From the NCBI GenBank assembly GCA_004565275.1, contig SDOX01000043.1:24190-52278 (forward strand): a stretch of DNA of 28,089 nt. Reading direction: 5' to 3'. This document shows positions 1 through 27,478 of the stretch, in pieces (positions within the stretch are counted from its first letter, which is position 1; every line of letters starts with the position of its first letter). Position numbers and translations under genes: made by a program. The notes beneath the pieces were generated by a model. It saw only the letters and a list, made by a program, of their open reading frames with translations. It was not told the origin of the DNA and searched no databases. This DNA comes from Nannochloropsis salina CCMP1776 (Eukaryota > Sar > Eustigmatophyceae > Eustigmatales > Monodopsidaceae).

Positions 1-3
1 GAC

Positions 4-67
4 CCTTCCCTCCCTCCCTCCCTCCCCTCCTCCCTCCCTTTCTCCCTCCCTCCCTCCCTCCCTCCCT
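4..67. repeat. CCCT tetranucleotide tract at window start
   Basis: The window opens in an almost pure pyrimidine CCCT/CCCTT run. The same motif recurs in the introns of the following gene and, as GGGA on the plus strand, in the minus-strand gene at 5326-6706. It is probably intron or flanking sequence of the first gene. Nothing coding can be supported here. Confidence 0.85.
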
Positions 68-186
68 AGCAGGGCTGAGGATCTATCCGCCTGGCCCCAG
101 GAAGGAGGGGCGATCGGACGCGCAGAAAAGGGAGGAATCGCAGCGGGAGGGGAAGGGAGCTTGCATCTTTTTTCCTCCTCCGCTCC

Positions 187-2340
187 TTGTCCGGGAGCCA
201 CCGGGATCTTTCCCTCCTCCCTCCTCGTCTTCCCCCCCCCACCCTCTCGAGCGGGTCCAACTCCACCACGTCCTCCTCGTCCACGACGTGGGAGGAGGAG
301 GGGCCAGGCGAGAAGGCGGCAGGGGAATGCAAGGAGCGGCCTCAGAAGGAGGATCGGTACGCGTCCCCATCCTCCCTCCTCTCCCTCTCGGGCTTCACCA
401 CCTCCCCCTCCACCCTCTCCGCCTCCGGCTCCGTCACCCCCACTGCCTGCTACTCCAGCTTGACGTGAGTCCTCGCTGGAGGAAAGAGGCGTTGAGCGCG
501 TCAGTTCTCTGGATTTTGGCGCGAAGGAAGGGAGGAAGGAAAATGCCAAAGCTCTTTTTCCTCTCTAGCTTGTCCCATAGCTCTTACTCCCCCCCCCCCA
601 ATCCCTCCCTCCCTCCCTTCCTCCTTCCCTCCCTTCCTCCTTCCCTCCCTCCTCATTCCTTGCCGTTTCGCACCTTATCTGTCAATCCCAGTGCCCCGCC
701 CGGCCTGGGAGACTACGCCTCAGGCTACGGTGAGAGCCGCACGTTCGCTTCGCCTGATTATACCAACCTCCCTCCCTCCGGGCACGTTGAGCACCCTTAT
801 GCACAGCAGCATTCGGGCGCCTCGTGGATGCCCACGTTGAAGACGCACTATCAGGGAAGTGAGCCGGAGCGAGCGCCCGTATTCGAGCACGTGCAGGCGT
901 CACAGGAGGTAAGGAGGGAGGACGGGGGGGAAAGGAGGGAGGGAGGGAGGGCAGGCGGAAGGAAGGGCGGGTTGTAGGAGGAAAGGTACCGTACGCAGCC
1001 GCATGGGTTCCTCCTTTGCCTTGTGCTGGCTTTATCATCCCCAGCCCTCTCCTTTCGCTGTTTCTTCCCCCTCTTCTCACCTTCTTTTCCATCCCTCCCT
1101 ATGTCCCCTCCCTCCTCGCCCTCCTCCCGCCCCTTTTACCCCTTTTGCTCCGCTCAGATTCTCAGCATGGAAAGTTTCCTTGTCCTTCTGGGCCTCGCCC
1201 ACCACGTGAACTCTTTTCACCAGCGGGGACTGGACCTGGAGGTGGGGAGGGAGGGAGGGAGGGAGGGAGGAGGAGGAGGAGGAGGAGGAGAAGGAGAAAG
1301 AGGAGGAGGAGGAGGAGGGGGACGTGGTACAAGCAACGAAAAAACTTGTGACGATGTGCGGACCGCCGGCTTCCTCAGCACACACGACACAACCACCCGT
1401 CCTGAATTCATCGCACAAGCGTCTCCGGTACTGGAAAGAGCCCGATAATGCCCAGGGAAGAGTGGTTCTGGGTATGGAGGTAGGTGCAGCTTCACCCTCC
1501 CTCCCTTCATCCCTCCCTTCATCCCTCCCTCCATTCCTCCCTCCATTCCTCCCTCCCTATATGCTTTCCCCCCGTTCTTGCGTCACAGTACCCTGTTTTC
1601 CTTGGTCCCTCCATTCTCTTTCGTGCCCCCCCTTCGCCATCCAGTCCACAGACACGTGCGCTCTGGTCGGGAGCCTCGGTTTGCGAGTCCTAAAGGGGGC
1701 AGTCCAGGCACTCGGCCATCCCCTCCGAGCCCCCATGTCAGGCCCCGTTCCCCTTCATTCACCGCGATGGATGTCTGCCTTGACCTGGACGGCTGCCCTC
1801 TCTCCTTCCCCCCCTCCTTCCCCCACGTCCTCGGTCGGTCCCTCTGCCACGACTTCCCGGAAGTTCAAGGGAGAGAGTTCCGACAAAGGCACTGTCAATC
1901 CGGGCCGCCACGCTTGTCCTGGCCCTCCCTCCCTCCCTCCCTCCCTCCCTTCCTTCCTTCCTTCCTCCCTGTCCTCTTTTCCCGTCCTCCTCCTCCTCAC
2001 CCCTCTGTCCCCCTCCATCTCCCACCTGCCCCCTTTTCTCACCGCCCACGATGATGCCGAGGCCCTGTGGACCCAACACCAGCCTCTCGCAACTCCTGCT
2101 CGCGGCCCTTCCTCCCTCCCTCCCTCCCCCCTTCCCTCCTCCCCCTCCGTGGCCCCGCTGGGCCCAGGCCAAGGTCGGAGTGGGAAGGACAAGAGAGAGG
2201 GGGGCGAGGGGATGCAGGAGGCTTCTTCCCTCATTCTTCACTTACCTGGAGCTTTGGTCATGGACGAGAAGGTGTTGGTGGAGTGTTTGGGCATGGTCCC
2301 GTTGTGCGTGCCCCCGACGTGGACGAACGCGGGGGATGAG
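187..2340 (+). CDS. Upstream exon chain of unknown product, possibly the N-terminus of the GRC3-like gene
   Basis: I do not recognise this product. A phase-compatible exon chain can be read: about 187-464 (donor GTGAGT), 692-908 (donor GTAAGG), 1158-1241, 1318-1479 (donor GTAGGT) and 1645-2340 (donor GTGCGT). The last exon ends in phase 0 and the kinase exon at 2658 begins in phase 0, so one long transcript is possible. The chain would add about 480 residues. Recognisable stretches are a Ser/Thr-rich start, a Gly/Tyr/Pro/His-rich second exon, a short segment reading MESFLVLLGLAHHVNSF that faintly recalls a SAM-type helix, and KRLRYWKEPDNAQGRVVLG that faintly recalls a PH-type strand pair. Neither resemblance is secure. 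The 1645-2340 part is low complexity and may hide another intron. The true start lies at or left of 187 and is not fixed. It could equally be a separate gene. Confidence 0.4.
1243..1320. repeat. GGGA/GGA purine tract in a 76-base intron
   Basis: This is a nearly pure purine run of GGGA changing to GGA and GAAGGA units. The frame changes across it, and removing 1242-1317 restores one open frame, so it is read as a very short intron. The run of G triplets could form a G-quadruplex in the RNA. Confidence 0.7.
1494..1560. repeat. CCCT/CCATTCCT tract
   Basis: Pyrimidine tetranucleotide tract just after the GTAGGT donor at 1480, inside the intron that ends at the acceptor before 1645. Confidence 0.75.
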
Positions 2341-2365
2341 GTGCGTTTTTTCAAATTTCGCAAAT

Positions 2366-2377
2366 TTTGAATTCAAA
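2366..2377. repeat. AT-rich 12-base perfect palindrome just inside an intron
   Basis: TTTGAATTCAAA is a perfect palindrome inside a longer AT-rich near-palindromic block (about 2351-2382), starting about 10 bases after the GTGCGT donor at 2341. It contrasts sharply with the GC-rich surroundings. A role in RNA folding near the donor is possible but only inferred. Confidence 0.5.
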
Positions 2378-2657
2378 TTTGATTTTCTCAAAAGTTTGGG
2401 AGGGGACATTGTTTATTGTGAGGAATGCCCAGCCATGCCCTAACGAACTGAATGCGCTTCGCTCCCGTGTTCCGTCCTTCCCTCTTGTGCCCTGGCAGCG
2501 ACCTCCTCACATCCATCCCTAAACACCTTTTCTCCTGCTTTCCCTTCCTCCCATCCTCCTAGTCTCCCTGCCCAGGCCGTGTCTCTCATGCTCCCTAACC
2601 GCCTTTCCCTCCCTCCTTCCCTCCCTCTCTCCCTCCCTCCCTCCCTCCCTCCCTCAG

Positions 2658-4868
2658 ATCGTCGCCCTCCAAGCCTCCCGCACCTGTCCCAAGCCTGTGA
2701 GCCCTCCCATCCCCCCACCTCTCGCCCACGAGCCGGGCTACCATGACAAAAGAGAAGCCAGCAGCCTTTTGCGCCCCACTAGACGCTCCCTGAACGAAAG
2801 GAATGGCTCTGATCCAGACCTCTCCGCCGCGCCTCCCCACGGCAAGAAAGGGGACAGAGAGGCCCGCAGCCACCATCCCCCCCAGGCGAGCACCGGCATT
2901 GGAGTACCTCGGCGGGGGCAAGACTCGGAGAGGGGAGGGCATGTGGCGCCCAAAGGTCTTGTGGTTGCCGTTTGCGGCGGGAAAGGGACGGGGAAGTCCA
3001 CGTTCAGCCGCTATTTGACCCACCGTCTCGTGGCCTCCCTCCCTCCCTCCCTCCCTCCCTCCCTCCCCCCCGCCCTCGCCTACCTGGATTGCGACGTGGG
3101 CCAGCCGGAATTTTCTCCTTCCGGTCTCCTCTCCCTCTCCCTCCTCTCTTCCGGCCTTCCTCCCACCTCCTACCCCCTCCTCGGGCCCCCCCACACCCAC
3201 CTCCTTCCCGCCCGCCCGCCCTCCCTCCCTTCCCATGCCATCTTCCTAGGGGACCTCACCCCCCGCCACGACCCATCCCTCTTCGTCCGAGCCGTGCGGG
3301 AGCTGCACGCCCTCTACCTCGCCCTCTATCCCTCCCTCCCCCTCGTCGTCAACCTGGATGGGTGGGTGCGGGGCCTCGGTCTGGAACTCATGCGGGTCCT
3401 CCTCCAAGATGTGCTCATGCCGGACGTGGTCGTGAAAATGCAGGTGAGGGAGGGGGAGAGAGGGAGGGAGGGAGGGAGGGAGGGAGGGAGGGAGGGATGA
3501 GTAAGATCTCTTCACATGCCTCGCGCGCATTCGAGTAGAAGGTGGCAGCTATGCGACTGCATTATCCCGACACCACGTGTCTGCTTCTTGACCTTTTGAG
3601 GACCTCGTCCTCTTTCCCTTCCTCCCTCCCTTCCTTCCTCCCTTCCTTTCTTCCCCCCCCCCCTGTCCACATTGTAGGGTGTCGTGAAAGCCGCTCAATT
3701 CGCTCTCCCGAACCCTCTTGCGCCTCTAACTCGAGTGATGGAAGTGGAAGGAAGCGACTATTTTGAGCCGAGGGAGAAGGACGGAAGGGACGGGGGAAGG
3801 GGCAGCAGGAAAAGAGGAGTGGCGGCACAAGACGCGAGGATCTTAAGGTTGCTGGCATATTTTTTGGCGGGAAAACATGAGGAGGAAAATGGAAGGGAAA
3901 ACTGGACGACGATGGAGGAAGAGGAATCTGAGGAGAAGAGGGTGGCAGGAGGAGGAGGAGATGAAGGAGAAAGAGATAGAGGCAGGGGAGAGCTCTTTCA
4001 TGGTGTCCGCCAGCAGAGCGGGACCGTACTTGACCCTGAAGGGAGGATCGCCCATTTCTTCGCAGCCATGGTAGGTGTTGCAAGCCCTTTCCTACGCCCT
4101 CTTCATGTCTCCCTCCTTCCCTCCCTCCCTCCCTCTCTCTCTCACGCCTTCCCTTCTCTAGCTGTGCGTGCCTCCCGGCGCCGAGGCAAGCGTTTAATTT
4201 GTTGTAGACGCGTCTTCTGCCTGTTGGTTTTTAAAGAATGTAGAATGTATTTCTCGATTTGTTAGGATTAGGTTTCCTGCATGCCTGTGCATTTGGACCC
4301 TTCGAAACCTTCTTCCCCTTCTGTGTCACCTCCAACTTGACTTAAAGTGTACCTCCTCCATCCCCTCCCCTCCTCCCTCCCTCCATACCTCCCCCAGGCC
4401 CCGTACCGTATCCCCCTGCATCTGCTTCAATTGAGCGTCCTTCACGAGGAAGTCCCTTTCCACGAAACAAATCGAGCGTTCAACGCCTCCCTCGTTGGCC
4501 TGCATGCCCTCCCTCCCTCCCTCCCTCCCTCCCTCCCTCCCACGCCCGATCGCCCCACCACCAACCAGTCCTCCGTGGCCCCTTCCTCCCCCCGGCCCTC
4601 CCTCCCTTCCTCCCTCCCCCTGTGCCTGGGTCTAGGTATCTGTCGCGGCCTGGACGCCCACTCTCTCTACCTTCTCTCTCCTCTTCCTCTCTCCGAGCTG
4701 CAGTGCGCCAGGGTCCTTTTCAGAGGCAGATTACAGCTGCCCCTCCTTTGTTATGACATGGGAAGTACCGGCGCTCCTTGCCCTTACGTATCCGCAGAAA
4801 CCACGACCACGGCCATGGGGGGCACGTCGCAACTTAGGAATCGAGCAGGAATGCCCAGAAGAGGATGA
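2658..4868 (+). CDS. GRC3: GRC3/NOL9-type polynucleotide 5'-hydroxyl kinase (Clp1/Grc3 family)
   Basis: Members of this family phosphorylate RNA 5'-hydroxyl ends and act in nucleolar pre-rRNA ITS2 processing. Three phase-0 exons are read: 2658-3443, 3678-4070 and 4398-4868, giving about 550 residues. The first holds the Walker A loop GGKGTGKST and the strand LDCDVGQPEFSPSG. The motif GDLTPRHDPSLF and the stretch VVNLDGWVRGLGLELM follow, all characteristic of GRC3/NOL9. The second exon ends with a helix resembling the family's RILRDLSILSYL region. The third has APYRIPL, NASLVGL and CLGLGICRGLD, matching the family C-terminal domain. CCCT repeats enter the coding frame as Ser-Leu-Pro-Pro runs at 3034-3072 and 4510-4541. 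A small extra exon between 3539 and 3600 cannot be excluded. An alternative last exon could use the acceptor before 5078 and stop at 5180. The protein start may lie in the upstream exon chain, because no initiating Met is evident at 2658. Confidence 0.87.
3034..3072 (+). repeat. CCCT tract inside the kinase coding sequence
   Basis: The tract sits in frame between the Walker A helix and the LDCDVGQPEF strand and is read as repeated Ser-Leu-Pro-Pro. The frame stays open and matches the family on both sides. It lacks an AG acceptor at its end, so it looks like coding insertion rather than an intron. Confidence 0.75.
3444..3677 (+). other. Intron with GGGA tract after the donor and CCCT/CCTT tract before the acceptor
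   Basis: The donor GTGAGG is followed at once by about 50 bases of GGGA repeats (3444-3497). The acceptor, a TAG ending at 3677, is preceded by CCCTCCTT repeats (about 3618-3664). The two ends are complementary, so the intron RNA could fold back and bring its splice sites together. Flanking exons join in phase 0. Confidence 0.65.
4107..4142. repeat. CCCT tract in the third kinase intron
   Basis: CCCTCC run followed by CT repeats, inside the intron 4071-4397 (donor GTAGGT, acceptor CCCCCAG). Confidence 0.7.
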
Positions 4869-5325
4869 GACCCTCCCCCCCTCCTTCCCTCCCTCCCTCC
4901 CTCCCTCCCTTTCTCTTGATGGCCACGGGACGTGTGCCCCTTGTTCCCTCACTTCCTCCCCCATGGTGGTTCGTTGCATGTCGGAGAGGAAGCAAACCAG
5001 CGAAAGCCTTCGTTGACAACCATCCACGCTTTGGGCATTGTGAAATAACGGAGCGCTGCACGTCTGCTCCTTTCCAGGGAATGGAATTTCCCTTACACCG
5101 TCCAGAAGCATGAGGAAAGCACATATGTATTTTTGGGAAACAAACAAAACACGACGCATCAAAGAATGAACCCCTTATAAATTCGGCATTCACATCCGAA
5201 CAACCGTGACCCGAGTCAGCCACATGCAACGTGGCACCCGTTATCTACAACGTGCTTTCACAAAAGAATTTTCTTTTTTCCTATGCATGCTAGCTGTCTT
5301 TCTTAGCCCTTGTATGTTCTGTCCC
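4869..5325 (+). other. 3' flank of the kinase gene, including a CCCT tract
   Basis: This stretch follows the TGA at 4866-4868 and reaches the end of the convergent minus-strand gene. It begins with a CCCT tract (about 4870-4912). A strong acceptor (CCTTTCCAG, ending about 5077) precedes an open stretch that ends with TAA at 5178-5180, which might be an alternative last exon. Otherwise it is probably 3' UTR and about 145 bases of true spacer. Confidence 0.4.
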
Positions 5326-8083: not shown

Positions 8084-8632
8084 AAGAGTACGACTTAAGT
8101 AGCTCGTACCTCCCGGCCAAGGCGGGCAACAAATCGAGTATGCTCACACACGGTACTCAATTTTGAAGTATCGTCATCAATGTCACTCATTCGCATCTGC
8201 TCTTCATACGACACAATGCATGAGTCTCATAATATCTGGCACTACTCGTGGGCATCCTAGGACCCTCCAAAGAAAGCCCAAGACTTGCTCAGGAGGACAT
8301 ACTAAACTAACGGTCAAACGTCAGTTTCAGAGAAATGACGACATCATAGTAAAACAGAAATGCTAACGTACAATTCTTGGGATTCTTAAGAGTGTTTACA
8401 TGACAGGATTGCATACATACTGGAGAACTCCTTATAGCCGATTTGTGTATACATTCATCTCTACATTATTACTTAAGTAGAGTCTAAAAGTCCAGATGTT
8501 GTGACCACACATTTACTCAGAGTTTTCGAGGCGTCCCACTTGTTTACTTCCGCTCTGTGTTCAACCAAACCGATCCTTTCCTTTTTACCGTGGTATTGCC
8601 TAGCCGAACCTGATTAGAATTCACGCCCTACC

Positions 8633-10426
8633 ATGTCTCATCTATCCCATTTAACGACGGTTTCTTTGTCACAAGTCACTTTTCTTTACACAGCACCCAC
8701 TCTGGGCATAAAGCGTCCATCTCACACAAGAGATATGCGTCTCCCTTTCGTGTCTGCATGCCTGGTCGTACTTGGCATTGTCCCTGCCCCCATTGCAGTC
8801 GCGCAGGAGTGTCCCACTCTCACTCTCACTGGCAAGGCACGTCCGAGCCCCAAGCGCGGAGTCTTGGCTGGTAAAGGTCATGCCAGGGTCACTGTCACTC
8901 TCCGAAGTAAGGAAGTCGTGGACGATCTCAACTTCAAACTGCTGCTACCAGTCGGTGTGTCACCTGTGCGATCCTCCACTCGTCCAAAGCCGCGCATGTA
9001 TCCTGAAGTCGTCAAGAACCCGGACGGATCAACGGCCGTGTTTTGGCTCGGCTTCGACTTTGTGAAAGCCAAGGGCGGCAAGCGTGTTTTCAAAGCCAAA
9101 CTGAAAGTCGACGAGTGTGCCCCAGAGACCCTGACAGTCACCGGTCTAGCGTATCTGGTCAATGCGACGGACCTCACAACCTACTGCGCGACGCCGTTGG
9201 CAAGTCCCGCAGTCTTGAATGTGCGGTATTCGAAAGCCAAGAAGGCGGCTACATGTGCGCCGACTCCTGCTCCGACCGTCAACCCCACGCAGCCCTTTGT
9301 GTTGTTTGGCGAAGGACAGCGATGCTTGGAAGCAGGCAGACTTGCACCATTCGACGGTCGCCGCTTGTTGTCGAGCTTCGGCGTAGAACGCGGTGATACG
9401 GACTCTACCCACGCGGAGCACCGGCAGCTACAATCAATAGCAACGCCAAGTGACTGCTACACATACTGCTCTCTGAACGGGGGGGAGTCGACGCCTTTCT
9501 TTTTCAACTGGAACACAGTCACATCACAGTGTTTCTGCTGCGAGAACCAGTGCACGTTGATTATTGACCCAGCGTTCAACGCGTATGAGGTGATCGTGGC
9601 TGCAACAGGCGCTCCAACGGCAGTTCCCACGCCGGTCTCTTCGGCAGCCCCTACCGCATCGCCTACAGCTGCGCCTACGGAGTCGCCGACGGCATCGCCG
9701 ACCGCGTCGCCTACAGCTACCCCTACAGCATCGCCTACAGCTACCCCTACGGCAGCGCCTACAGCCTCCCCTACAGCGTCGCCTACAGCTACCCCTGTGG
9801 TATTGCCCACGCAGCCTCCCACTGCTCCTTGCTACAATCACGATGCCCACGTCGTCATGGCCGATGGCTCGCTTAAGAGCGTTATAGACCTTCGTAAAGG
9901 AGACCTCATTTCGGTGGATCCCAACGATCACAGCATTCATGCCAAGGTCCTTTCTCTTGTCGAAACTACCATAGAAGGTGCTGGTCATCGCCGTATGTGC
10001 GAGCTCGCTCCGGGCTTCTTTCTCACTCCAACACACCCTCTTTTAGTGAATGGAACGCGATGGATCCGACCTGAATGGGAATTCGCTTGTAATACTCCTA
10101 AACTATTCAAGAGCTTATTTAACATCGTGTTAGAGGAGGGTCCGCATCATACAATCAACATTCAGGGCTTTGCCGTGGCTTCTTGGGTGAAGTATCCTGT
10201 CGGCGTTCCTATGATTGATCGCCCTTATAAGATGGGCACGTACCGTGTCTTCGAACAGAAGCCCGGATTTGCAGAAGGTCATGTGAAGATCGATGCCAAA
10301 ACATTTTCTGATTTCAAATCGAAATGGATGAAAACCACTGGAAGCATTTCCGCACCGGAAGCTCCAACTTCGGTGTCATCATCGCCGGTCACGATTTCCG
10401 CGACCCCCCTGCACATGGAGCTCTGA
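8633..10426 (+). CDS. Secreted protein with PT-rich linker and C-terminal Hint (hedgehog/intein-type) module
   Basis: This is a single open frame of 597 codons. Met35 (base 8735) begins a textbook signal peptide ending in IAVA before Gln58, so it is the more likely start; Met1 is the longest option. Residues about 58-220 look like a beta-rich domain. Residues about 273-310 are a Cys-rich patch with CFCCENQC. Residues about 330-395 are an APTASPTA-type linker, likely glycosylated. The Hint module begins at Cys400 and continues with VVMADGSLKSVIDLRKGD. It carries the Thr465-x-x-His468 motif (TPTHPLLVNG), as in hedgehog Hog domains, and HHTINIQGFAVASW at about 505-518. In this superfamily the first Cys attacks the preceding peptide bond and causes self-cleavage, so release of the secreted N-part is inferred. 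No C-terminal splicing junction is evident, so protein splicing is unlikely. The N-domain's ligand is unknown. Copy B at 16653 is damaged. Confidence 0.82.
   Translation: MSHLSHLTTVSLSQVTFLYTAPTLGIKRPSHTRDMRLPFVSACLVVLGIVPAPIAVAQECPTLTLTGKARPSPKRGVLAGKGHARVTVTLRSKEVVDDLNFKLLLPVGVSPVRSSTRPKPRMYPEVVKNPDGSTAVFWLGFDFVKAKGGKRVFKAKLKVDECAPETLTVTGLAYLVNATDLTTYCATPLASPAVLNVRYSKAKKAATCAPTPAPTVNPTQPFVLFGEGQRCLEAGRLAPFDGRRLLSSFGVERGDTDSTHAEHRQLQSIATPSDCYTYCSLNGGESTPFFFNWNTVTSQCFCCENQCTLIIDPAFNAYEVIVAATGAPTAVPTPVSSAAPTASPTAAPTESPTASPTASPTATPTASPTATPTAAPTASPTASPTATPVVLPTQPPTAPCYNHDAHVVMADGSLKSVIDLRKGDLISVDPNDHSIHAKVLSLVETTIEGAGHRRMCELAPGFFLTPTHPLLVNGTRWIRPEWEFACNTPKLFKSLFNIVLEEGPHHTINIQGFAVASWVKYPVGVPMIDRPYKMGTYRVFEQKPGFAEGHVKIDAKTFSDFKSKWMKTTGSISAPEAPTSVSSSPVTISATPLHMEL
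9640..9800 (+). repeat. 12-base minisatellite encoding the Pro-Thr linker
   Basis: Tandem 12-base units (GCx CCT ACA/G GCx) encode Ser/Ala/Thr-Pro-Thr-Ala. Copy B at about 17690-17730 has 96 bases (eight units, 32 residues) fewer, an in-frame length change typical of slippage or unequal exchange. Confidence 0.85.
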
Positions 10427-12827: not shown

Positions 12828-15683
12828 GCAGGTCTTTCTTATTGCGATAAGCCGGTAAGTCCCCCTCTTTCCTTGCGACACTCGAGCCGTTCTCAGACTC
12901 GCCACCCTCCCTTGCTCCACTTCGCCGTCCTCGATGTGCTCAAGGAAAATTAAATAATATGTCCCGGCTTCCCAACCAATTTCACACACAGCATGACAGC
13001 GATTGCAGCAGAACGATGAGTAGTGAGAGCGCCCTCTCTCCCCCCGACAGGGGCAGCAGCACATTAATTGGCCACAAGCTCGGCTGCCCAGGGAACAAAA
13101 AACCTCCTGCCTCTCCCCTGCAGGCCCCCTTTCCTGCCATCTCCTTGCAGACTGCCAGGCGCACAGACCGTATTCCCTGCCTTGTAGGCACATCTCAAAT
13201 GGGTGCACAACAGAAGGTGGGCATGCTGCTACTGCACGAGCCAGTGAACGTAGCTCCCATTCTGTACGGGGAGGACGAGGACGACGGGGCAGAGGAGATG
13301 GCAGGACAAGGGGAAAAGCAAACAGAGATAGGCACCCCGAAAACAACGGCCACAACCTCCGCCCCTTCTCCCCCCGAGGGGACATTGTCACCTCCCTTTC
13401 CAGCGCACACCGATGGTGTGGGACTCGCAGGCCCCCCTATTAGTTTGCCTCCAGGTCGCGGCTTGCATTTGGTCATTTTCTTCGTGCCCGCCCACATGAT
13501 TACCAGCGAGCTCCTTCAGTTCGTCTCCCCCTTTCGGGACGACATCCGCCTCCTACGCATCGTGAGTCACCGCCTGCCTGCACCCTCGCCGTCCCTGCAT
13601 CCCTCCATTTTCGCCGTGTCCGCCCTCGCCTCCTTCCCATCCATGCGAGACCCCCCCCTGACTGCGGGAGACCCTTCTTCCACGCATTCCCCCTTGCCCC
13701 CTCCCTACGCTACACGATCGCAGCCGGCCAAATACATGGCTTTACTGGAAATGACAACGTCGACGGCTGCGGATGCGTTCTATCATGAATTTAACGGGCG
13801 GCCGTTTAACAGCTTGGAGCCGACGCTCTGTGCCGTCGGTTTTTTGAAAGGAATACTGTTCAGACGACCCTCCGCTCCTCATGCCCGCACTGGTACGTGA
13901 CCCTTTGTCATTGATGTGCTCACAAAACAGGACCTGCTCGCGGTTTTTACGTGATTCCTCCCTTTTTCTCCTTTCCCCCATACCGATTACCCGCCCCCTT
14001 GTTGATGCCCCGCTTCACTCTGGCTCCGCCTTCCTGCCTCGCTCCTACTGTTTTACCATGATCCTTGTCGCAGAATGGGTAGGGAATGGGGCTGACAATA
14101 ACACGTCCGAGGAAAGAGGAGCCAGGGAGACCCAAAGCCCATCGCATGGAGGGCCTACTGTAGCGGAAGGCGAGGGGACGAGGAGAGCAGGGCTCGAGGA
14201 AGACAAGATGAAGGAGGAGGAGGAATGCATGGACTGCGGACGAAAAGCGGGATTGGGCATAGAGGGGGGAGGGGATCATTGTCAGGTCGCTGGCCAGGAC
14301 TCGTCGGCAGGAATTCGGGGTCTCGACGCGGATGGTGGTATCTTCCACAGCCGCAGTGGCGTTGGAGACGACGGCCAAGACGTTATCCCTCGCGCAAAGG
14401 AATATCAAGCACCGTGTGACACTAGCTCTCCTTCGCTCCACCCTTGCTCCCTCCCTCCCTGCTTCCTGAGCCCCAGCCTCCATCAAGCCGTCCACGATCC
14501 AAGTGACCCTCAAATATCAACGAGCAGGGATTACCACGACAGCACATGCACTGCAACCAGCCACGCAGATGGAGAGGGCGGCAGTTCTTTGTTCTCTCTC
14601 GGTGCCAATGAAGAGAACCTCTCGCATTGCGTCGTCTGCCTCGAAACCCTCGCCGGCCTTCCCCCCTCCCCCTCCGCCTCTCCCTCGCTCCCTCCCCTGT
14701 CTCCTCCTATCCTCATCACGGCTTGCAACCACGCCTTTCATATCCCTTGTTTGGGACAGGTCCCTTCCCCGCTCTGCCCCGTTTGCCGTTACAACCACGA
14801 CGACGCCCTTGCCCACCATTCCTCCGCCTGCACGGACTGCGGGCGGACCACCGACCTGTGGGTCTGCCTGGTTTGTGCCTACGTTGGGTGCGGCCGGTAC
14901 CATGCCCACCATTCTCGAAACCACTACCTGGCCACCCTCCACGCCTACGCCATCGAGGTCCAGACCCAGCAAGTCTGGGATTACGTTGGGGACGGCTACG
15001 TTCACAGGTTACTCTACCATCCGTACTCCGCAGGAGGAGAAAGCGGTGGGGAGGGAGGGAAAATCGTCGAGGTTCCCGACCCCAATACCAATTCCAATCA
15101 ACGGCCGCGGCATGCGCCCATGCCGGAGGCGATGGAAGAGGAAATGGTGCACCGGAAGCTGGAAAACTGGGCCGAACAATACACGGTGCTCCTCTCGACG
15201 GGGCTACAAGAACAGCAAACGCGCTTTGATGCACGCTTGGCCGCATTACGGACAGCCTTCTCGCCTTCTTATCGTACTTCCTCGTCGGGCGCTACGGTGG
15301 TGGCAGCCTTGCGACAAGAGAAACGGCAAATGGAGAAACGTTGCGCAGGGGCTCGGGAACGCTTGCGGAAAGTAAGGGAGGAGGTGGGTTTCTTGAGCGC
15401 TGTGAACGCGTCCCTGGAGGCAAATCAAGAATCGGTAGCAGCCTCCTTGCGGGAGGCACAAGAGGAGCTGATGAAGACAGAGAAGGAAAGAGAGACGATG
15501 GTGGGCCCATTGGAGGAGAGGTTGCGGCAATTGATGATGCGCTTGGATTGTCAAATCGGGGATGGATCGGAATCGAAAGCGCAAGGAGATCATGGAGTGC
15601 AGGAAGCCAAAGAGAGAGGTTGTGGGGAAGCTGGGGGTGATAGTGGAGATAGACGTCAGGGGAAAGAGACCGAAGAGGATTGA
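12825..15683 (+). CDS. BRAP: BRAP/ETP1-type RING-H2 and ZnF-UBP E3 ubiquitin ligase
   Basis: This is a homologue of BRCA1-associated protein (BRAP2/IMP; yeast Etp1), a cytoplasmic E3 ligase that in animals restrains Ras-MAPK signalling. Four exons, 12825-12854, 12992-13561, 13724-13892 and 14074-15683, join in matching phases to give 792 residues. The domains come in family order. The RRM-like BRAP2 domain at about residues 155-252 includes GRGLHLVIFFVPAHM and FYHEFNGRPFNSLE. The RING-H2 has ligands Cys442, Cys445, Cys474, His476, His479, Cys482, Cys491 and Cys494. The ZnF-UBP starts CTDCG at Cys509 and ends VWDYVGDGYVHRLL. A long C-terminal coiled coil follows (about 600-740). Compared with animal members there is a long, low-complexity, acidic insertion (about 258-435) between the RRM-like and RING domains. 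A start at Met in the second exon (13015) is the alternative. The function in algae is inferred. Confidence 0.93.
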
Positions 15684-16103: not shown

Positions 16104-19040
16104 AGCGGCACGATTTAAGTGACGCCTACCTCCTGACCAAAGCGGGCAACAAATCGAGTATGCTCACACACGGTACTCAATTTTGAAGTATCGTCATCAA
16201 TGTCACTCATTCGCATCTGCTCTTCATACGACACAATGCATGAGTCTCATAATATTTGGCACTACTCGTGGGCATCCTAGGACCCTCCAAAGAAAGCCCA
16301 AGACTTGCTCAGGAGGACATACTAAACTAACGGTCAAACGTCAGTTTCAGAGAAATGACGACATCATAGTAAAACAGAAATGCTAACGTACAATTCTTGG
16401 GATTCTTAAGAGTGTTTACATGACAGGATTGCATACATACTGGAGAACTCCTTATAGCCGATTTGTGTATACATTCATCTCTACATTATTACTTAAGTAG
16501 AGTCTAAAAGTCCAGATGTTGTGACCACACATTTACTCAGAGTTTTCGAGGCGTCCCACTTGTTTACTTCCGCTCTGTGTTCAACCAAAACGATCCTTTC
16601 CTTTTTACCGTGGTATTGCCTAGCCGAACCTGATTAGAATTCACGCCCTACCATGTCTCATCTATCACATTTAACGACGGTTTCTTTGTCACTAGTCACT
16701 TTTCTTTACACAGCACCCACTCTGGGCATAAAGCGTCCATCTCACACAAGAGATATGCGTCTCCCTTTCGTGTCTGCATGCCTGGTCGTACTTGGCATTG
16801 TCCCTGCCCCCATTGCAGTCGCGCAGGAGTGTCCCACTCTCACTCTCACTGGCAAGGCACGTCCGAGCCCCAAGCGCGGAGTCTTGGCTGGTAAAGGTCA
16901 TGCCAGGGTCACAGTCACTCTCCGAAGTAAGGAAGTCGTGGACGATCTCAACTTCAAACTGCTGCTACCAGTCGGTGTATCACCTGTGCGATCCTCCACT
17001 CGTCCAAAGCCGCGCATGTATCCTGAAGTCGTCAAGAACCCAGACGGATCAACGGCCGTGTTTTGGCTCGGCTTCGACTTTGTGAAAGCCAAGGGCGGCA
17101 AGCGTGTTTTCAAAGCCAAACTGAAAGTCGACGAGTGTGCCCCAGAGACCCTGACAGTCACCGGTCTAGCTTATCTGGTCAATGCGACGGACCTCACAAC
17201 CTACTGCGCGACGCCGTTGGCAAGTCCCGCAGTCTTGAATGTGCGGTATTCGAAAGCCAAGAAGGCGGCTACATGTGCGCCGACTCCTGCTCCGACCGTC
17301 AACCCCGCGCAACCCTTTGTGTTGTTTGGCGAAGGACAGCGATGCTTGGAAGCAGGCAGACTGGCACCATTCGACGGTCGCCGCTTGTTGTCGAGCTTCG
17401 GCGTAGAACGCGGTGATACGGACTCTACTCACGCGGAGCACCGGCAGCTACAATCAATAGCAACGCCAAGTGACTGCTACACATACTGCTCTCTGAACGG
17501 GGGGGAGTCGACGCCTTTCTTTTTCAACTGGAACACAGTCACATCACAGTGTTTCTGCTGCGAGAACCAGTGCACGTTGATTATTGACCCAGCGTTCAAC
17601 GCGTATGAGGTGATCGTGGCTGCAACAGGCGCTCCAACGGCAGTTCCCACGCCGGTCTCTTCGGCAGCCCCTACCGCATCGCCTACAGCTGCGCCTACGG
17701 AGTCGCCTACAGCTACCCCTGTGGTATTGCCCACGCAGCCTCTTACTGCTCCTTGCTACAATCACGATGCCCACGTGCCCACACATGCTTTCTCTTGTTG
17801 AAAGTACCACAGAAGGCGCCGGTCATCGACGTATGTGCGAGCTCGCTCCCGGCTTCTTTCTCACTCCAACACACCCTCTTTTGGTGAACGGAACGCGATG
17901 GATCCGGCCTGAATGGGAATTTGCTTGTAACACCCCTAAAGTATTCAAGAGCTTATTCAACATCGTGTTAGAAGAGGGTCCGCATCATACAATCAATATT
18001 CAGGGCTTTGCCGTGGCTTCCTGGGTGAAGTATCCTGTCGGAGTCCCTATGATTGATCGCCCTTACAAGATGGAAACCTATCGTGTCTTCGAACAGAAGC
18101 CCGGATTTGCAGAAGGTCACGTGAAGATCGATGCCAAAACATTTTCTCATTTCAAATTGAGGTGGATGAAAACCACTGGAAGTATGTCCGCACTAGAAGC
18201 TCCAACTTTGGTGTCATCGTCGCCGGTGACGACTTTTGCGAGCCCCCTGCACATGGAGCTTTGAGTCGAGGCATTGACTACGGTCTACTCTAGGCCGGTG
18301 CATCGATCAGATTATGGTCTAACGCAAGGAGCTGTGAAGGTGAAACATACTGGCAAAACCTAGACCAGAAGCGTGCAGAAGTAAGAAATCGTAGTATCTG
18401 TCGTAGAGAGTTTAATTTCCCACGTGGAGTATTGTCACGGCATTCGAGACAGTTCTCTCTTGATATCCTATACCTAAAGGTTTGCATAACTATATTAGCG
18501 GCCCAGATGCTTGCGAGCAAGCGACTCCCTGCATCTCATGAAATAACGCCCGTTCCAATTGAAAGGAACTTTTCTCTAACTACGTAGCAAAAACAAAGAT
18601 CATTGTGGGCTGACATGCCATTCGTCATATGTTCTGATCTTGAGATTTTTTTCTGTAAACCTCTTCATTTTCGATCATGTCGCTTTACCGGGAAGTATGA
18701 GATTTCCCGTCGCGAACGCGCGGGTTTTCATCGTAACATGGCACCATTGTTCAGACGTGACGCTTGTCTCGTCTGTAAAAGGGCCTGTTAGGATGTCACA
18801 CCTAAGCGCAAGAAGTGAACTGTCTGGTTTATAGCCAAGCAATAAAGATCTTACCTGCCACATGTATGCTGTGTGGAGCCTTCCTCTTGATATTATTCTT
18901 TAATCTTAATAGCTGCAAATGCCCATTTTGTGCCATTCCAACTTTTCACTTTTCCATCCCAGGATCAATGCCGTGGCAAAGTTCTAATCCCATGCAAATA
19001 TTTTATCTTAGGCTGTTGGACAGTAAAGCAGGTCCTCATT
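16104..19040 (+). repeat. Segmental duplication, copy B (direct repeat of 8084-11205)
   Basis: It mirrors copy A in the same orientation, about 2.9 kb long. The upstream region 16142-16652 differs from copy A by only about two substitutions, yet the sequence just before it is only about 70% alike. Copy B is shorter because of a 96-base loss in the PT minisatellite and a net 86-base loss at the start of the Hint region. The two copies bracket the DUF1764-BRAP pair. Confidence 0.88.
16653..18264 (+). pseudogene. Second Hint-protein gene, disrupted at the start of its Hint module
   Basis: Relative to copy A, 97 bases (9853-9949 there) are replaced by the 11 bases GCCCACACATG, which shifts the frame. 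The first frame therefore ends at 17801 with a short unrelated tail (VPTHAFSC) after the catalytic-type Cys. The rest of the Hint region is still open as 17767-18264. The signal peptide, beta-rich domain and Cys-rich patch are intact, so the locus could still yield a secreted 382-codon protein without a working Hint module. The detached C-terminal frame keeps TPTHPLLVNG and HHTINIQGFAVASW but lacks the starting Cys. An intron across the junction is unlikely: the segment is simply missing compared with copy A. Confidence 0.8.
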
Positions 19041-21934: not shown

Positions 21935-22231
21935 ATCTTCCAAGGCATTGGCGCGGTGCTAGGGGTTGCTGGTGCTACCGCTTTGGTCGTGCGTACTTTC
22001 GACCAGACTGAGATAAAGTATATCGAGAGCAAGGCGGCGGCGGAGATCGCGCGTGTGGAGGACAAGCGGACAATGTCGGAAATGTTTTGGAAGGCAGAGG
22101 TGGAGCGGTTCAAGCGCGAGGTCCAACTGGCTTACACTCAAGACTATGAGCCTTATCAGGCCGCGCTTGTGGACAAACGTAAAAAGAGGGGAGGAACCGG
22201 CGGATTGGAGGAGAAGGAAGAGGAGAATTAG
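21935..22231 (+). pseudogene. Coiled-coil protein, array copy 1, 5'-truncated
   Basis: Only the distal part of exon 2 is present, from ATCTTCCAAGGC to TAG at 22229-22231. The presequence exon, the intron and the start of exon 2 are missing and are replaced by the end of the dioxygenase gene. It has just one 11-residue repeat (KAAAEIARVED). The frame is open back to about 21864, and a CTCTCAG acceptor-like site sits at about 21911, so expression from an upstream exon is conceivable but unproven. Confidence 0.75.
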
Positions 22232-23229
22232 GATTCGGGGCCCTACCTTAATATAAATAGAAACCATGTAGAAAGACACATTCAAAGACATGTACAGTGG
22301 ACGGGGTTGTGCAGTAGAGAGATGGGCAGGAGGGGGATAGGACTCATACACGACAAACGTAATAACGAGGGCTCCTCACAACTTGTATCGAGCGAGTTTT
22401 TCCTTTGTCTTTTATGATTTGATGCACTGGCTCATATCCATCTCCCCCACACTAACGCCGCCGACCCTGCTTTCGACTTGTCCAACCAAGCCCCTGCCGC
22501 TTGACGGCAGCAGACCGAGGCGACCCGTCGAAGGAGGGGGCAGACGCGGTGGGAAGGACGGAGGAAGTCATGGTATGAGTCAATGGAATGTAGCGGAAGC
22601 TTTGGACCCCGGAAGAAAGGCACGGTGTTGTGTTGTTAATAGTGCCAGCACCAAGGCCTGTTTGCGTAATAGACGCACATACTACTTAGAAAGGCGGCAC
22701 GTAAGGAGGCTCAACAAGCTTTGTGGACCCCCGCCCAGCAGCCAACAGCCAGTCTAGCATGTCTCCCTAGGCCCAGTCTTGTGCGCAGCACCACACTTAA
22801 TACCACCCACCACCCGCCCATCCGTACAGGTTTGTCACGTCGCACCCTCTACATGGTCCTGGCGTCTGTGGCTGGCATCGCGGTGGTGGGTGTGCTCTGT
22901 GTGTGCCTTCCATGCATCATCATCATCAAGCAAGCCTGTTCTTGTCCCCCAATCCCCTTTTGGTCTTGCCCTTTGGCAAGCCAGGGGCACCCGCTTTGCC
23001 ACCAACCTGTGGTGTAGCATGCGGAGGGGGAGTGTTTGACGCTGACGGCGTAACGAGCTTGGTTCTGAAGAGCTTGTTTGTTGTATTTAGGGCGGCTTGG
23101 AAACCGACCTCAAACACTGTCTCATTCCCCTTCCCTTCCTCCCACCACTACACCACAACAACATGCACCGCTTGCTTGCTTGCCTTGCTGCTTGCTGCCA
23201 TCATCAACCACGACCACCAGGGGGACAAC
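22232..23229 (+). other. Array spacer with a conserved putative membrane-segment reading frame
   Basis: This is about 1 kb between one coiled-coil gene and the next. It recurs at 24012-25027, 25753-26753 and 27479-28089. It holds a TATAAATA site soon after the preceding stop and a stretch (about 22681-23017) that can be read as KEAQQALWTPAQQPT, then, after a possible TACAG acceptor, as a hydrophobic segment YMVLASVAGIAVVGVLCVCL. In the third unit that frame stops just after the hydrophobic stretch, and a 14-base indel breaks the region between the two parts in the fourth. A second small spliced gene per unit is possible but not shown. The right end is the promoter and 5' UTR of the next coiled-coil copy. 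Confidence 0.35.
22252..22259 (+). promoter_or_regulatory. TATAAATA site after array copy 1
   Basis: TATAAATA lies about 20 bases after the stop of copy 1 and recurs at 24032-24039 after copy 2. After copies 3 and 4 the same position reads TATCAATA. It could be a TATA box for a spacer transcript or part of a 3'-end signal. Confidence 0.3.
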
Positions 23230-23300
23230 ATGCTTCGGCGCTTCACGGCGAAGGCTGGGGCCATGGCACGGAGAGGGAGCACGCTTCCCGGGCCAGGTGA
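23163..23300 (+). other. Conserved upstream ORF overlapping the coiled-coil start (unit 2)
   Basis: A 45-codon frame starting MHRLLACLAACC begins 67 bases before the ATG of the coiled-coil gene, in a different frame, and overlaps it. It recurs at 24961 and 26687. In unspliced RNA its TGA lies exactly on the donor (AG|GTGA); after splicing it would run on into exon 2. It may modulate translation of the main frame, or be an alternative product. Confidence 0.4.
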
Positions 23301-24011
23301 GGTGGCGTGTGTGATGCATTTTGGAAGAACTCGGGCTTGTTGATGGGGTGGGAGTGCGCGTTCGGTGCACGCGACCGCAGTCTGGCCGAGGCATGTTGAT
23401 GCCCCCTTTGTCTGCGTGTCTGTGTCGTTTGCGTTGCAATCTTTGTTATGCGGACAAGGGCCCGCGTCAAGGTGTTCACGCACACGCACATCCATACACA
23501 CCCAACAGGAAAGGGACGCGTGCTGCGGGGGGGCCTTCTCCTCGACAGCCCACTCGGGGCCGGGCACGAGCAGTGGAGAGGAGCTTGGTAAGAAGTGGGC
23601 GACAATCTTCCAAGGCATTGGCGCGGTGCTAGGGGTTGCTGGTGCTACCGCTGTGGTCGTGCGTACTTTCGACCAGACTGAGATAAAGTATATCGAGAGC
23701 AAGGCGGCGGCGCAGATCGCGCGTGTGGAGGACAAGGCGGCGGCGGAGATCGCGCAGGCGAAAAGCGGATATCACGCAGGTGAAAAGCAGACGTCGCGCG
23801 TGTGGAGGACAAGGCGGCGGCGGAGATCGCGCGTGTGGAAGACAAGCGGACAATGTCCGAAGTGTTTTGGAAGGCAGAGGTGGAGCGGTTCAAGCGCGAG
23901 GTCCAACTGGCTTACACTCAAGACTATGAGCCTTATCAGGCCGCGCTTGTGGACAAACGTAAAAAGAGGGGAGGAACCGGCGGATTGGAGGAGAAGGAAG
24001 AGGAGAATTAG
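23230..24011 (+). pseudogene. Coiled-coil protein, array copy 2, frameshifted
   Basis: Exon 1 is 23230-23296 and exon 2 starts at 23509, as in the intact copies. Exon 2 has an extra C after the G run at about 23534, which leads to an early stop. Two further single-base gains lie in the degenerate part of the 33-base repeat (about 23760-23795). The last part is again open in the family frame and ends with TAG at 24009-24011. The presequence MLRRFTAKAGAMARRGS is unchanged. It is probably a recent pseudogene of the array, since its spacer and exon 1 are still nearly identical to the intact units. Confidence 0.75.
23700..23856 (+). repeat. 33-base coding minisatellite (hendecad repeat)
   Basis: Units of about 33 bases encode Lys-Ala-Ala-Ala-Glu-Ile-Ala-Arg-Val-Glu-Asp. 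The number and form of units differ by copy: one in copy 1, an enlarged degenerate set in copy 2, and two 11-residue units plus a 7-8 residue partial unit in copies 3 and 4 (about 25497-25587 and 27223-27313). Confidence 0.85.
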
Positions 24012-25027
24012 GATTCGGGGCCCTACCTTAATATAAATAGAAACCATGTAGAAAGACACATTCAAAGACATGTACAGTGGACGGGGTTGTGCTGGAGAGA
24101 GATGGGCAGGAGGGGGATAGGACTCATACACGACTAACGTAATAACGAGGGCTCCCCACAACTTGTATCGAGCGAGTTTTTCCTGTGTCTTTTATGATTT
24201 GATGCACTGGCTCATATCCATCTCCCCCACACTAACGCCGCCGACCCTGCTTTCGACTTGTCCAACCAAGCCCCTGCCGCTTGACGGCAGCAGACCGAGG
24301 CGACCCGTCGAAGGAGGGGGCAGACGCGGTGGGAAGGACGGAGGAAGTCATGGTATGAGTCAATGGATTGTAGCGGAAGCTTTGGACCCCGGAAGAAAGG
24401 CACGGAGGGGCGTGCTAGAGGCGGTGCTGTGTTGGTAATAGTGCCAGCACCAAGGCCTGTTTGCGTAATATACACACATACCACTTAGAAAGGCGGCACG
24501 TAAGGAGGCTCAACAAGCTTTGTGGACCCCCGCCCAGCAGCCAACAGCCAGTCTAGCATGTCTCCCTAGGCCCAGTCTTGTGCGCAGCACCACACTTAAT
24601 ACCACCCACCACCCGCCCATCCGTACAGGTTTGTCACGTCGCACCCTCTACATGGTCCTGGCGTCTGTGGCTGGCATCGCGGTGGTGGGTGTGCTCTGTG
24701 TGTGCCTTCCATGCATCATCATAATCAAGCAAGCCTGTTCTTGTCCCCCAATCCCCTTTTGGTCTTGCCCTTTGGCAAGCCAAGGGCACCCGCTTTGCCA
24801 CCAACCTGTGGTGTAGCATGCGGAGGGGAGTGTTTGACGCTGACGGCGTAACGAGTTTGGTTCTGAAGAGCTTGTTTGTTGTATTTAGGGCGGCTTGGAA
24901 ACCGACCTCAAACACTGTCTCATTCCCCTTCCCTTCCTCCCACCACTACACCACAACAACATGCACCGCTTGCTTGCTTGCCTTGCTGCTTGCTGCCATC
25001 ATCAACCACGACCACCAGGGGGACAAC

Positions 25028-25752
25028 ATGCTTCGGCGCTTCACGGCGAAGGCTGGGGCCATGGCACGGAGAGGGAGCACGCTTCCCGGGCCAGGTGAGG
25101 TGGCGTGTGTGATGCATTTTGGAAGAACTCGGGCTTGTTGATGGGGTGGGAGTGCGCGTTCGGTGCACGCGACCGCAGTCTGGCCGAGGCATGTTGATTC
25201 CTCCTTTGTCTGCGTGTCTGTGTCGTTTGCGTTGCAATCTTTGTTATGCGGACAAGGGCCCGCGTCAAGGTCTTCACGCACACGCACATCCATACACACC
25301 CAACAGGAAAGGGACGCGTGCTGCGGGGGGGCTTCTCCTCGACAGCCCACACGGGACCGGGCACGAGCAGTGGAGAGGAGCTCGGTAAGAAGTGGGCGAC
25401 AATCTTCCAAGGCATTGGCGCGGTGCTAGGGGTTGCTGGTGCTACCGCTGTGGTCGTGCGTACTTTCGACCAGACTGAGATAAAGTATATCGAGAGCAAT
25501 GCGGCGGCGGAGATCGCGCAGGCGCAAGCGGAGATCGCGCGTGTGGAGGACAAGGCGGCGGCGGAGATCGCGCGTGTGGAGGACAAGCGGACAATGTCCG
25601 AAGTGTTGTGGAAGGCGGAGGTGGAGCGGTTCAAGCGCGAGGTCCAACTGGCTTACACTCAAGACTATGAGCCTTATCAGGCCGCGCTTGTGGACAAACG
25701 TAAAAAGAGGGGAGGAACCGGCGGATTGGAGGAGAAGGAAGAGGAGAATTAG
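25028..25752 (+). CDS. Small single-span coiled-coil protein, probably mitochondrial, array copy 3 (intact)
   Basis: I do not recognise the family. Exons 25028-25094 (donor GTGAGG) and 25307-25752 (acceptor CCCAACAG) join in phase 1 to give 170 residues. The N-terminus MLRRFTAKAGAMARRGS lacks acidic residues and can form an Arg/Lys-rich amphipathic helix, typical of a mitochondrial presequence. A Gly/Ser-rich stretch follows, then a membrane segment, GIGAVLGVAGATAVVV. An alanine-rich charged helix comes next with two repeats of pattern x-AAAEIA-xx-E-x and a shorter AEIARVED unit, then a conserved helix with KAEVERFKREVQ and DYEPYQAALVDKRKK. The tail is acidic (EEKEEEN). The 11-residue period suggests a hendecad coiled coil. 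A membrane-anchored scaffold or tether role is a guess. The unit is preceded by the overlapping upstream ORF at 24961. Confidence 0.78.
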
Positions 25753-26753
25753 GATTCGGGGCCCTACCTGAATATCAATAGAAACCATGTAGAAAGACAC
25801 ATTCAAAGATATGTACAGTGGACGGGGTTGTGCTGGAGAGAGATGGGCAGGAGGGGGATAGGACTCATACACGACTAACGTAATAACGAGGGCTCCCCAC
25901 AACTTGTATCGAGCGAGTTTTTCCTTTGTCTTTTATGATTTGATGCACTGGCTCGTATCCATCTCCCCCACACTAACGCCGCCGACCCTGCTTTCGACTT
26001 GTCCAACCAAGCCCCTGCCGCTTGACGGCAGCAGACCGAGGCGACCCGTCGAAGGAGGGGGCAGACGCGGTGGGAAGGACGGAGGAAGTCATGGTATGAG
26101 TCAATGGAATGTAGCGGAAGCTTTGGACCCCGGAAGAAAGGCACGGTGTTATGTTGTTAGTAGTGCCAGCACCAAGGCCTGTTTGCGTAATATACACACA
26201 TACTACTTAGAAAGGCGGCACGTAAGGAGGCTCAACAAGCTTTGTGGACCCCCGCCCAGCAGCCAGCAGGCAGTCTAGCATGTCTCCCTAGGCCCAGTCT
26301 TGTGCGCAGCACCACACTTAATACCACCCACCACCACCCCATCCGTACAGGTTTGTCACGTCGCATCCTCTACATGGTCCTGGCGTCTGTGGCTGGCATC
26401 GCGGTGGTGGGTGTGCTCTGTGTGTGCCTTCCATGCCTCATCATCATCTAGCAACAAGCCTCTTCTTGTCCCCCAATCCCCTTTTGGTCTTGCCCTTTGG
26501 CAAGCCAAGGGCACCCGCTTTGCCACCAACATGTGGTGTAGCATGCGGAGGGGGAGTGTTTGACGCTGACGGCGTAACGAGCTTGGTTCTGAAGAGCTTG
26601 TTTGTTGTATTTAGGGCGGCTTGGAAACCGACCTCAAACACTGCCTCATTCCCCTTCCCTCCCTCCCACCACTACACCACAACAACATGCACCGCTTGCA
26701 TGCTTGCCTTGCTGCTTGCTGCCATCATCAACCACGACCACCAGGGGGACAAC

Positions 26754-27478
26754 ATGCTTCGGCGCTTCACGGCGAAGGCTGGGGCCATGGCACGGAGAGG
26801 GAGCACGCTTCCCGGGCCAGGTGAGGTGGCGTGTGTGATGCATTTTGGAAGAACTCGGGCTTGTTGATGGGGTGGGAGTGCGCGTTCGGTGCACGCGACC
26901 GCAGTCTGCCCGAGGCATGTTGATGCCCCCTTTGTCTGCGTGTCTGTGTCGTTTGCGTTGCAATCTTTGTTATGCGGACAAGGGCCCGCGTCAAGGTGTT
27001 CACGCACACGCACATCCATACACACCCAACAGGAAAGGGACGCGTGCTGCGGGGGGGCTTCTCCTCGACAGCCCACACGGGGCCAGGCACAAGCAGTGGA
27101 GAGGAGCTCGGTAAGAAGTGGGCGACATTCTTCCAAGGCATTGGCGCGGTGCTAGGGGTTGCTGGTGCTACCGCTGTGGTCGTGCGTACTTTCGACCAGA
27201 CTGAGATGAAGTATATCGAGAGCAAGGCGGCGGCGGAGATCGCGCAGGCGAAAGCGGAGATCGCGCGTGTGGAGGACAAGGCGGCGGCGGAGATCGCCCG
27301 TGTGGAAGACAAGCGGACAACGTCCGAAATGTTTTGGAAGGCAGAGGTGGAGCGGTTCAAGCGCGAGGTCCAACTGGCTTACACTCAAGACTATGAGCCT
27401 TATCAGGCCGCGCTTGTGGACAAACGTAAAAAGAGGGGAGGAACCGGCGGATTGGAGGAGAAGGAAGAGGAGAATTAG
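26754..27478 (+). CDS. Small single-span coiled-coil protein, probably mitochondrial, array copy 4 (intact)
   Basis: It has the same two-exon structure as copy 3: 26754-26820 and 27033-27478, joined in phase 1, 170 residues. It differs from copy 3 by a few residues, including Lys for Asn at the first repeat, AQAK for AQAQ, KRTTSEMF for KRTMSEVL, and Phe for Ile in WATxFQGI. Intact frame, conserved splice sites and the same presequence suggest it is functional. It shares spacer variants partly with copy 1 and partly with copies 2 and 3, which points to exchange between units. The family is unknown. Confidence 0.78.

Follow-up and report, generated by a model that had tools for sequence, protein, structure and literature searches.

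Hint modules are widespread outside animals, and their job there is mostly unknown. The 28,089-nt stretch of Nannochloropsis salina CCMP1776 DNA analyzed here (hereafter the window) contains an open reading frame (ORF) that raises two questions: which kind of Hint module has this alga placed behind a secretory-looking protein, and is the combination peculiar to a single gene? The original prediction had described a secreted protein with a self-processing module of the hedgehog type and had regarded the pairing as distinctive. That the DNA comes from an alga was supported by the genome, which yielded 34 matches to the light-harvesting model PF00504, the best of them nearest to solved fucoxanthin antenna chains; none of the solved chains was near-identical, and searches at E 1e-60 gave nothing.

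The ORF (termed copy A; positions 8633–10426, + strand, as are all features described for this gene) encodes 597 aa without an internal stop, i.e. ORF reading of the window shows an intact frame over 597 codons. Hydrophobicity analysis revealed that a strong hydrophobic stretch begins right behind Met35, and an in-frame Met stands directly ahead of the same stretch in all 11 aligned members that share the front part of the protein (the start Met of these members being our own choice). Together these observations make a start at Met35 (position 8735) probable, giving a protein of 563 aa in which Cys400 is Cys366. The predicted signal peptide-like stretch (MRLPFVSACLVVLGIVPAPIAVAQ; positions 8735–8806), recognized by its hydrophobicity alone and similar to the start of the 11 aligned members, is followed by a conserved front domain (8807–9256) that ends at Cys174 (Met35 numbering) and is found at approximately 50 places in the genome. 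For this domain there was no match in Pfam and nothing significant among PDB sequences (best E 0.46), and hence no known fold in these collections. Next come a conserved Cys-rich patch (9257–9589; Cys197, 241, 245, 266, 268, 269 and 273 in Met35 numbering) and a 73-aa PT/A/S linker (9608–9826; 19 P, 19 T, 18 A and 9 S), which leads into Cys400.

The Hint-type module (9827–10297) contains Cys400 (9830–9832), the predicted nucleophile, which is preceded by Pro, and motif B, Thr465-Pro-Thr-His468 (10025–10036; Thr465 at 10025, His468 at 10034); the motif A Cys and the motif B TxxH are thus both present, at exactly the positions first assigned to them. The last 42 residues (10298–10423) have a C-terminal part with many S, T, P and A. 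The predicted layout of a secretory-looking N-terminal part, a PT linker and a Hint-type module with catalytic residues is therefore borne out by the hydrophobic start, the composition of the linker and the profile match described below. No match to NCBIfam was found for the copy A protein, and the top matches of the whole protein in the PDB, which involved the low complexity of the PT linker (circumsporozoite protein), were set aside.

Pfam analysis assigned the module to Vint (PF14623; residues 399–515, E 1.2e-12, 48.4 bits, cut-off 27), whereas the hedgehog Hint model PF01079 scored 11.5 bits against a cut-off of 29.7. The same assignment was obtained for copies on two other contigs (denoted C with a number), namely C48 (Vint 51.6 bits, E 1.2e-13; PF01079 17.7 bits, below cut-off) and C79 (Vint 48.5 bits, E 1.1e-12). 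When the whole genome was searched, PF14623 matched three places at 48.6–51.2 bits and PF01079 none above its cut-off. The back half of copy A is, by profile, a Vint module. The sole solved chain matching it at E up to 10 was 8r2c (E 1.1e-6, residues 403–555), from a protein named for a VWA domain. No VWA match was found by Pfam in the copy A ORF, and when all six frames of the 26.5 Mb genome were searched with PF00092, 0 matches were obtained at E 1e-3; the same search was positive in 11 of 14 control genomes. To our knowledge, a eukaryotic genome without any VWA domain would be unusual, if the assembly is complete. An AlphaFold model of copy A and the second copy of the window (copy B), built on an alignment of these 2 sequences, reached a pLDDT of 29.2, so that the assignment of the Hint fold rests on sequence profiles. 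Searches for outside relatives gave no match among phage records at E 0.01, 5 stretches fitting a pattern in viral contigs (none confirmed) and 24 stretches in prokaryote genomes (none confirmed), and thus supplied no outside sequences for a deep alignment.

Of the predicted hedgehog-type Hint module, the Hint part accordingly stands and the hedgehog part does not: among the profiles compared, Vint lies above its cut-off and the Hog and intein models below theirs. A protein of the hedgehog or Hog type, whose tail would bind sterol and whose front part would leave as a sterol ester, is what the layout calls to mind, since a secretory-looking N-terminal part precedes a Hint module with Cys and TxxH; moreover, Hog proteins are widespread in protists, according to the accessible text of Burglin 2008 (PMC2362128). 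Yet membership of this group had to be rejected on the PF01079 scores of copy A and of the entire genome. The tail may point the same way. The approximately 70 residues behind the Hint core, where hedgehogs bind sterol, are mostly contained in the 8r2c alignment, which reaches residue 555 and leaves 42 residues over, and Vint lacks the Hog motifs J, K and L, as stated by its definer in the text available to us (PMC2362128). We therefore consider a hedgehog-like mode of action very improbable. The module could also belong to a splicing intein or a bacterial intein-like element, for which the Hint-type character and two weak scores of the C48 copy speak (Hom_end_hint 14.6 bits, cut-off 32.1; Hint_2 16.4 bits, cut-off 28.4). 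Both scores are sub-threshold, however. The C-terminal splice motif of inteins ends in HN; here the motif-F-like segment, identified by eye, ends in VAS-W and is followed by approximately 42 residues without a C-extein domain. The intein was rejected on these grounds, and we give it hardly any chance.

With the copy A Vint module as the query, four places were found in the genome (A, B, C48 and C79; 4 of 4 candidates scored). Copy B, the second family copy in the window (16653–18264, + strand), consists of a front module with a shorter PT linker (16653–17801), ending soon past PCYNHDAHV at a frame break, and a remaining Vint module (17767–18264) that is out of frame with it and scores 27.2 bits against the Vint cut-off of 27. 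A 96-bp deletion in its linker is in-frame; what has broken the frame is a net loss of 86 bp from the Hint core. On C48, front module and Vint occupy different frames, the switch lying inside the PT repeat at a run of C that is one base short, either through a genuine mutation or through an error in sequencing. In the C79 copy the front pieces are in different frames, Ser replaces the Thr of motif B, and no match to the first 125 residues was found at that place. Because copies B, C48 and C79 are broken or altered, only copy A is complete and in one frame among the four Vint places, and the Vint branch may therefore be in decay.

The residues expected to act in catalysis have been retained well: the Cys is kept in 3 of the 3 Vint copies that cover it, the His in 4 of 4 and an intact TxxH in 3 of 4. 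Pro precedes the Cys in copies A and C48. Between the three diverged Vint copies, pairwise dN is 0.25–0.36 and synonymous sites are saturated (pS 0.77–0.81). In the 158 codons that copies A and B share behind the deletion, 28.5 synonymous and 13.5 other changes were counted (dN/dS 0.124). The Vint module has been held under strong purifying selection.

The distribution of the family in the genome was examined with two queries. The whole copy A protein, for which 73 of 150 candidates were scored, gave at least 92 matches; with the front domain as the query there were 54 (54 of 54 candidates scored), which merged to approximately 50 places. The pairing that was called distinctive is consequently real, but it is one case in a wider pattern, in which approximately 50 front modules are joined to many C-terminal partners. 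The 92 whole-protein matches were merged by hand into 51 places (pieces of one gene joined; matches to the PT linker only, e.g. C70:1361811, C94:18390, C94:33863, C56:381822 and C28:25342, left out). A contig end lies <10 kb away from 33 of these 51 places, 32 of the 33 being transcribed towards it, and all 25 places <5 kb from a contig end point at that end; neighboring copies included in these counts are not independent of each other. An informal control gave a different picture, as 0 of the 34 light-harvesting matches start below position 10,000 and none of the 17 located on eight contigs of measured length comes closer than 10 kb to the far end.

Not every contig end is a telomere. TTAGGG arrays were present in 11 of the 16 inspected loci that reach a contig end (9 of 14 in the first batch, plus L071 and L072; L029 stops 5 bases short). 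In four of the five array-less loci the contig ends inside or just behind the gene, and the fifth, L031, was read without its outermost bases, as were L024 and L033. In two loci the array lies some way inside the contig (L029:4112–4285, approximately 500 bp from the end, and L033:2123–2260); hence, some family members may adjoin interstitial telomere repeats. The front-module family is enriched near contig ends, with telomere repeats in most of the loci inspected, and there it almost always faces the end. The Vint members do not occupy the extreme ends, all 4 places being more than 10 kb away from one.

The back halves were inspected in 38 of the approximately 50 copies (2 in the window and 36 in other genomic loci), most labels being assigned by eye; on C84, C70 and C41, fragments of genes that adjoin a counted copy were left out of the tally. 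Nine kinds were recognized behind the PT linker. The most frequent, recognized by motif, are repeats ending in AYFG (10 of 38), followed by BNR-like WTEQTAAGS...SIASSSDG repeats (5; BNR scores sub-threshold), Vint (4, including the broken copy B) and SBBP repeats (4, of which two were scanned, with E 6.5e-14 and 3.1e-19, and one other has frame breaks). For the SBBP part of the C78 copy, the leptospiral SBBP model of NCBIfam gave 179 bits, far below its cut-off of 400. Collagen was found in 3 copies (E 1.1e-61 for the one scanned, which has an AYFG unit behind it), class 3 lipase in 2 (E 1.6e-15 on C89; on motif alone on C2), Cys-rich repeats without a Pfam domain match in 2, lysophospholipase PLA2_B in 1 (E 3.2e-23) and an HExxH back half in 1 (Peptidase_M8 at E 0.14); the latter we take, from its motifs, to be protease-like. 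In 5 copies PT or other low complexity stands alone, and 1 is cut by the contig end.

The AYFG and BNR-like back halves may be propellers; none of the seven single units or pieces scanned scored above any cut-off. In L023, L024, L026, L029, L032 and L036 the AYFG back halves are split into many short open stretches, mostly of approximately 53 codons, which proceed in the direction of the contig end and resemble exons of one repeat each, separated by small introns. Three other loci (L066, L076 and L077) have in common an extra stretch (DPLFVPPTGFSLGNPPTYKFINTTATFDGDVALCLSYS...SFSPFALGI) between the front module and the back half.

Comparative analysis of closely related copies showed where the family members part. 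The copies on C17 and C78 are 98.9% identical over 2,528 bp, from upstream of the gene into the PT linker, with identical front modules; the homology ends in the linker and is followed by AYFG units in one copy and SBBP repeats in the other. Similarly, the C4 and C7 copies are 93.5% identical over 2,172 bp, behind which they continue into BNR-like and AYFG units, respectively. Copies A and B are 98.7% identical over positions 8090–9687, mostly 85–94% over the next 1.3 kb and 77–79% past approximately 11.2 kb, so that their near-identity also stops in the linker; other family members diverge at their own linkers. In a tree built from 23 front modules, the back halves require 6 changes for AYFG, 3 for SBBP, 4 for BNR and 3 for Vint, of which the well-supported branches force at least 5, 2, 4 and 2, respectively (the placement of C79, a short row on a long branch, is unsure). 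For all labels together, 12 changes were needed compared with a mean of 14.4 after shuffling, a value as low occurring in 10 of 200 shuffles. The labels are thus somewhat more clustered than shuffled ones, and the swapping of back halves is not free. We infer that recombination was the cause of the swaps.

One front module, at 56 kb of C66 (L018, C66:55000–60500, approximately 890–2370), has lost the signal peptide-like start and continues in frame into part of a 1.7–1.8 kb unit that fills the window from 22.0 to 28.1 kb. In this region of the window (22005–28089) the unit, of approximately 1.72–1.80 kb, is repeated in tandem three to four times, and ORFs such as EELGKKWATIFQGIGAVLG recur in it. 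The reported 300-base blocks of the unit are 86–100% alike, except for one at 75%; Tandem Repeats Finder (periods up to 500, score 200) returned no row. Two further regions of the window were inspected. The ORF at 13881–15683 encodes a zf-UBP finger (E 2.5e-19) with sub-threshold RING scores, and is possibly a BRAP2-like ubiquitin ligase. At positions 1–5000, many overlapping ORFs with LPPSLPP or GGREGG repeats occur on both strands, which suggests CT-rich simple repeats rather than genes.

Taking these results together, we think it probable, though by no means certain, that copy A is the one apparently complete Vint member of a modular, secretory-looking and largely end-near family, whose back halves have been swapped by recombination, and that it is processed at Cys400. 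A typical member would consist of the shared front module (signal peptide-like start, conserved domain and Cys-rich patch) and the PT linker, and the back half behind them would be exchanged via recombination within, or close to, the repeats that code for PT. Copy A and its kin are predicted to be secreted. Carbohydrate-binding modules carry cargo in secreted enzymes, and by analogy the front module may serve as the constant export and surface- or wall-binding part, bearing enzymes, rods or propeller-like repeats on a stalk. In copy A, the bond before Cys400 (Cys366) would be converted into a thioester with the aid of Thr465 and His468. Water would then release the front module together with its PT stalk, or both would be handed on to a nucleophile, e.g. 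a wall component. Considered separately, cleavage by Vint before Cys400 seems to us somewhat likelier to occur than to be absent. In inteins, a Pro before the Cys disfavors or slows the N–S acyl shift, and the Pro ahead of Cys400 therefore counts against cleavage.

This Pro, together with the broken or altered state of 3 of the 4 Vint places, would fit a Vint module that does not cleave now and forms a structural or binding back half, one cargo of many on the front module, just as the enzymes, rods and propeller-like repeats of other members appear to be cargo. We regard this as a possibility to be taken seriously although not the one we expect, given that the catalytic Cys, His and TxxH have been kept in nearly all copies and that purifying selection on the module is strong. 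It overlaps with a simpler view, in which ordinary subtelomeric duplicates are drifting to decay and the Vint copy has no present function. The broken copy B and the disrupted frames of C48 and C79 agree with such drift, but the open frame of copy A over its entire length and the low dN/dS of the Vint part shared by A and B make it unlikely. The favored reading, i.e. a modular family with a cleaving Vint member, can be extended further, to a free-living alga that assembles its surface proteins anew at the chromosome ends: recombination at PT repeats near the telomere would join interchangeable back halves to a secreted front that stays constant, a self-cleaving Vint would free or covalently attach the front, and the population as a whole would possess a switchable surface resembling antigenic variation and convergent with a red-algal Hint family. 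This picture is speculative, and we hold it to be doubtful.

Vint modules and subtelomeric modular families are both known already, and the combination described here is a variant of both; no published description of this front-module family was found in a literature search, most subscription journals being outside its scope. Like the VWA-Vint proteins (Burglin 2008, PMC2362128, in its accessible text; PF14623; 8r2c), copy A has by profile the same Hint subtype, with motifs A and B, in C-terminal position; unlike them, it has no VWA match, either in its ORF or elsewhere in the genome. The presence of one front part with and without Hint within a single family provides a built-in control for the role of Hint. 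A similar situation is found in the nematode warthog, groundhog and ground-like families, where only some members of an N-terminal domain family carry Hint/Hog (PMC1636047). Their module is Hog rather than Vint, and the opening part of that abstract does not mention swapping among many C-terminal domains. The diatom Pleurosigma pacificum has a Hint entry in >290 genes (PMC12803021); in Ectocarpus, one Hint gene shows weak expression in the female gametes (PMC3879662).

With regard to genomic location, the family resembles the subtelomeric surface proteins of Pneumocystis and trypanosomes, for which, in the sources as far as accessible, genes near telomeres and mosaic recombination between copies are described. 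It differs in belonging to a photosynthetic cell, and switching or one-at-a-time expression of its members would be conjecture. The end-facing layout and the direct signs of exchange at a repetitive linker would place algae next to parasites in diversifying their exported proteins where chromosomes end.

The closest parallel in the literature comes from the Cyanidiales, which are red algae. According to the accessible text of Cho et al. 2023 (PMC9812998), their subtelomeric duplicates most often encode kelch together with trefoil or Hint, joined by a Thr/Pro/Ala-rich peptide. These domains occur there in varying combinations and in approximately 12–24 copies, a signal peptide is named in a figure legend, and the authors cannot determine the benefit. 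The common features are thus subtelomeric duplication, a T/P/A-rich linker and a Hint module in varying combinations. The Hint of the Cyanidiales, called hedgehog in that paper, has been reclassified as non-Hh Hog in a report, also accessible in part, in which 8 of the 10 Hog genes of one species are expressed mainly in haploid cells (PMC13353863). There, Hog is joined to kelch; in the present family, Vint stands behind a constant front without known relatives, and the back halves also include lipases, a protease-like domain and collagen. The two families are likened here by their layout, and the parallel suggests that families of this kind are either old or of repeated origin.
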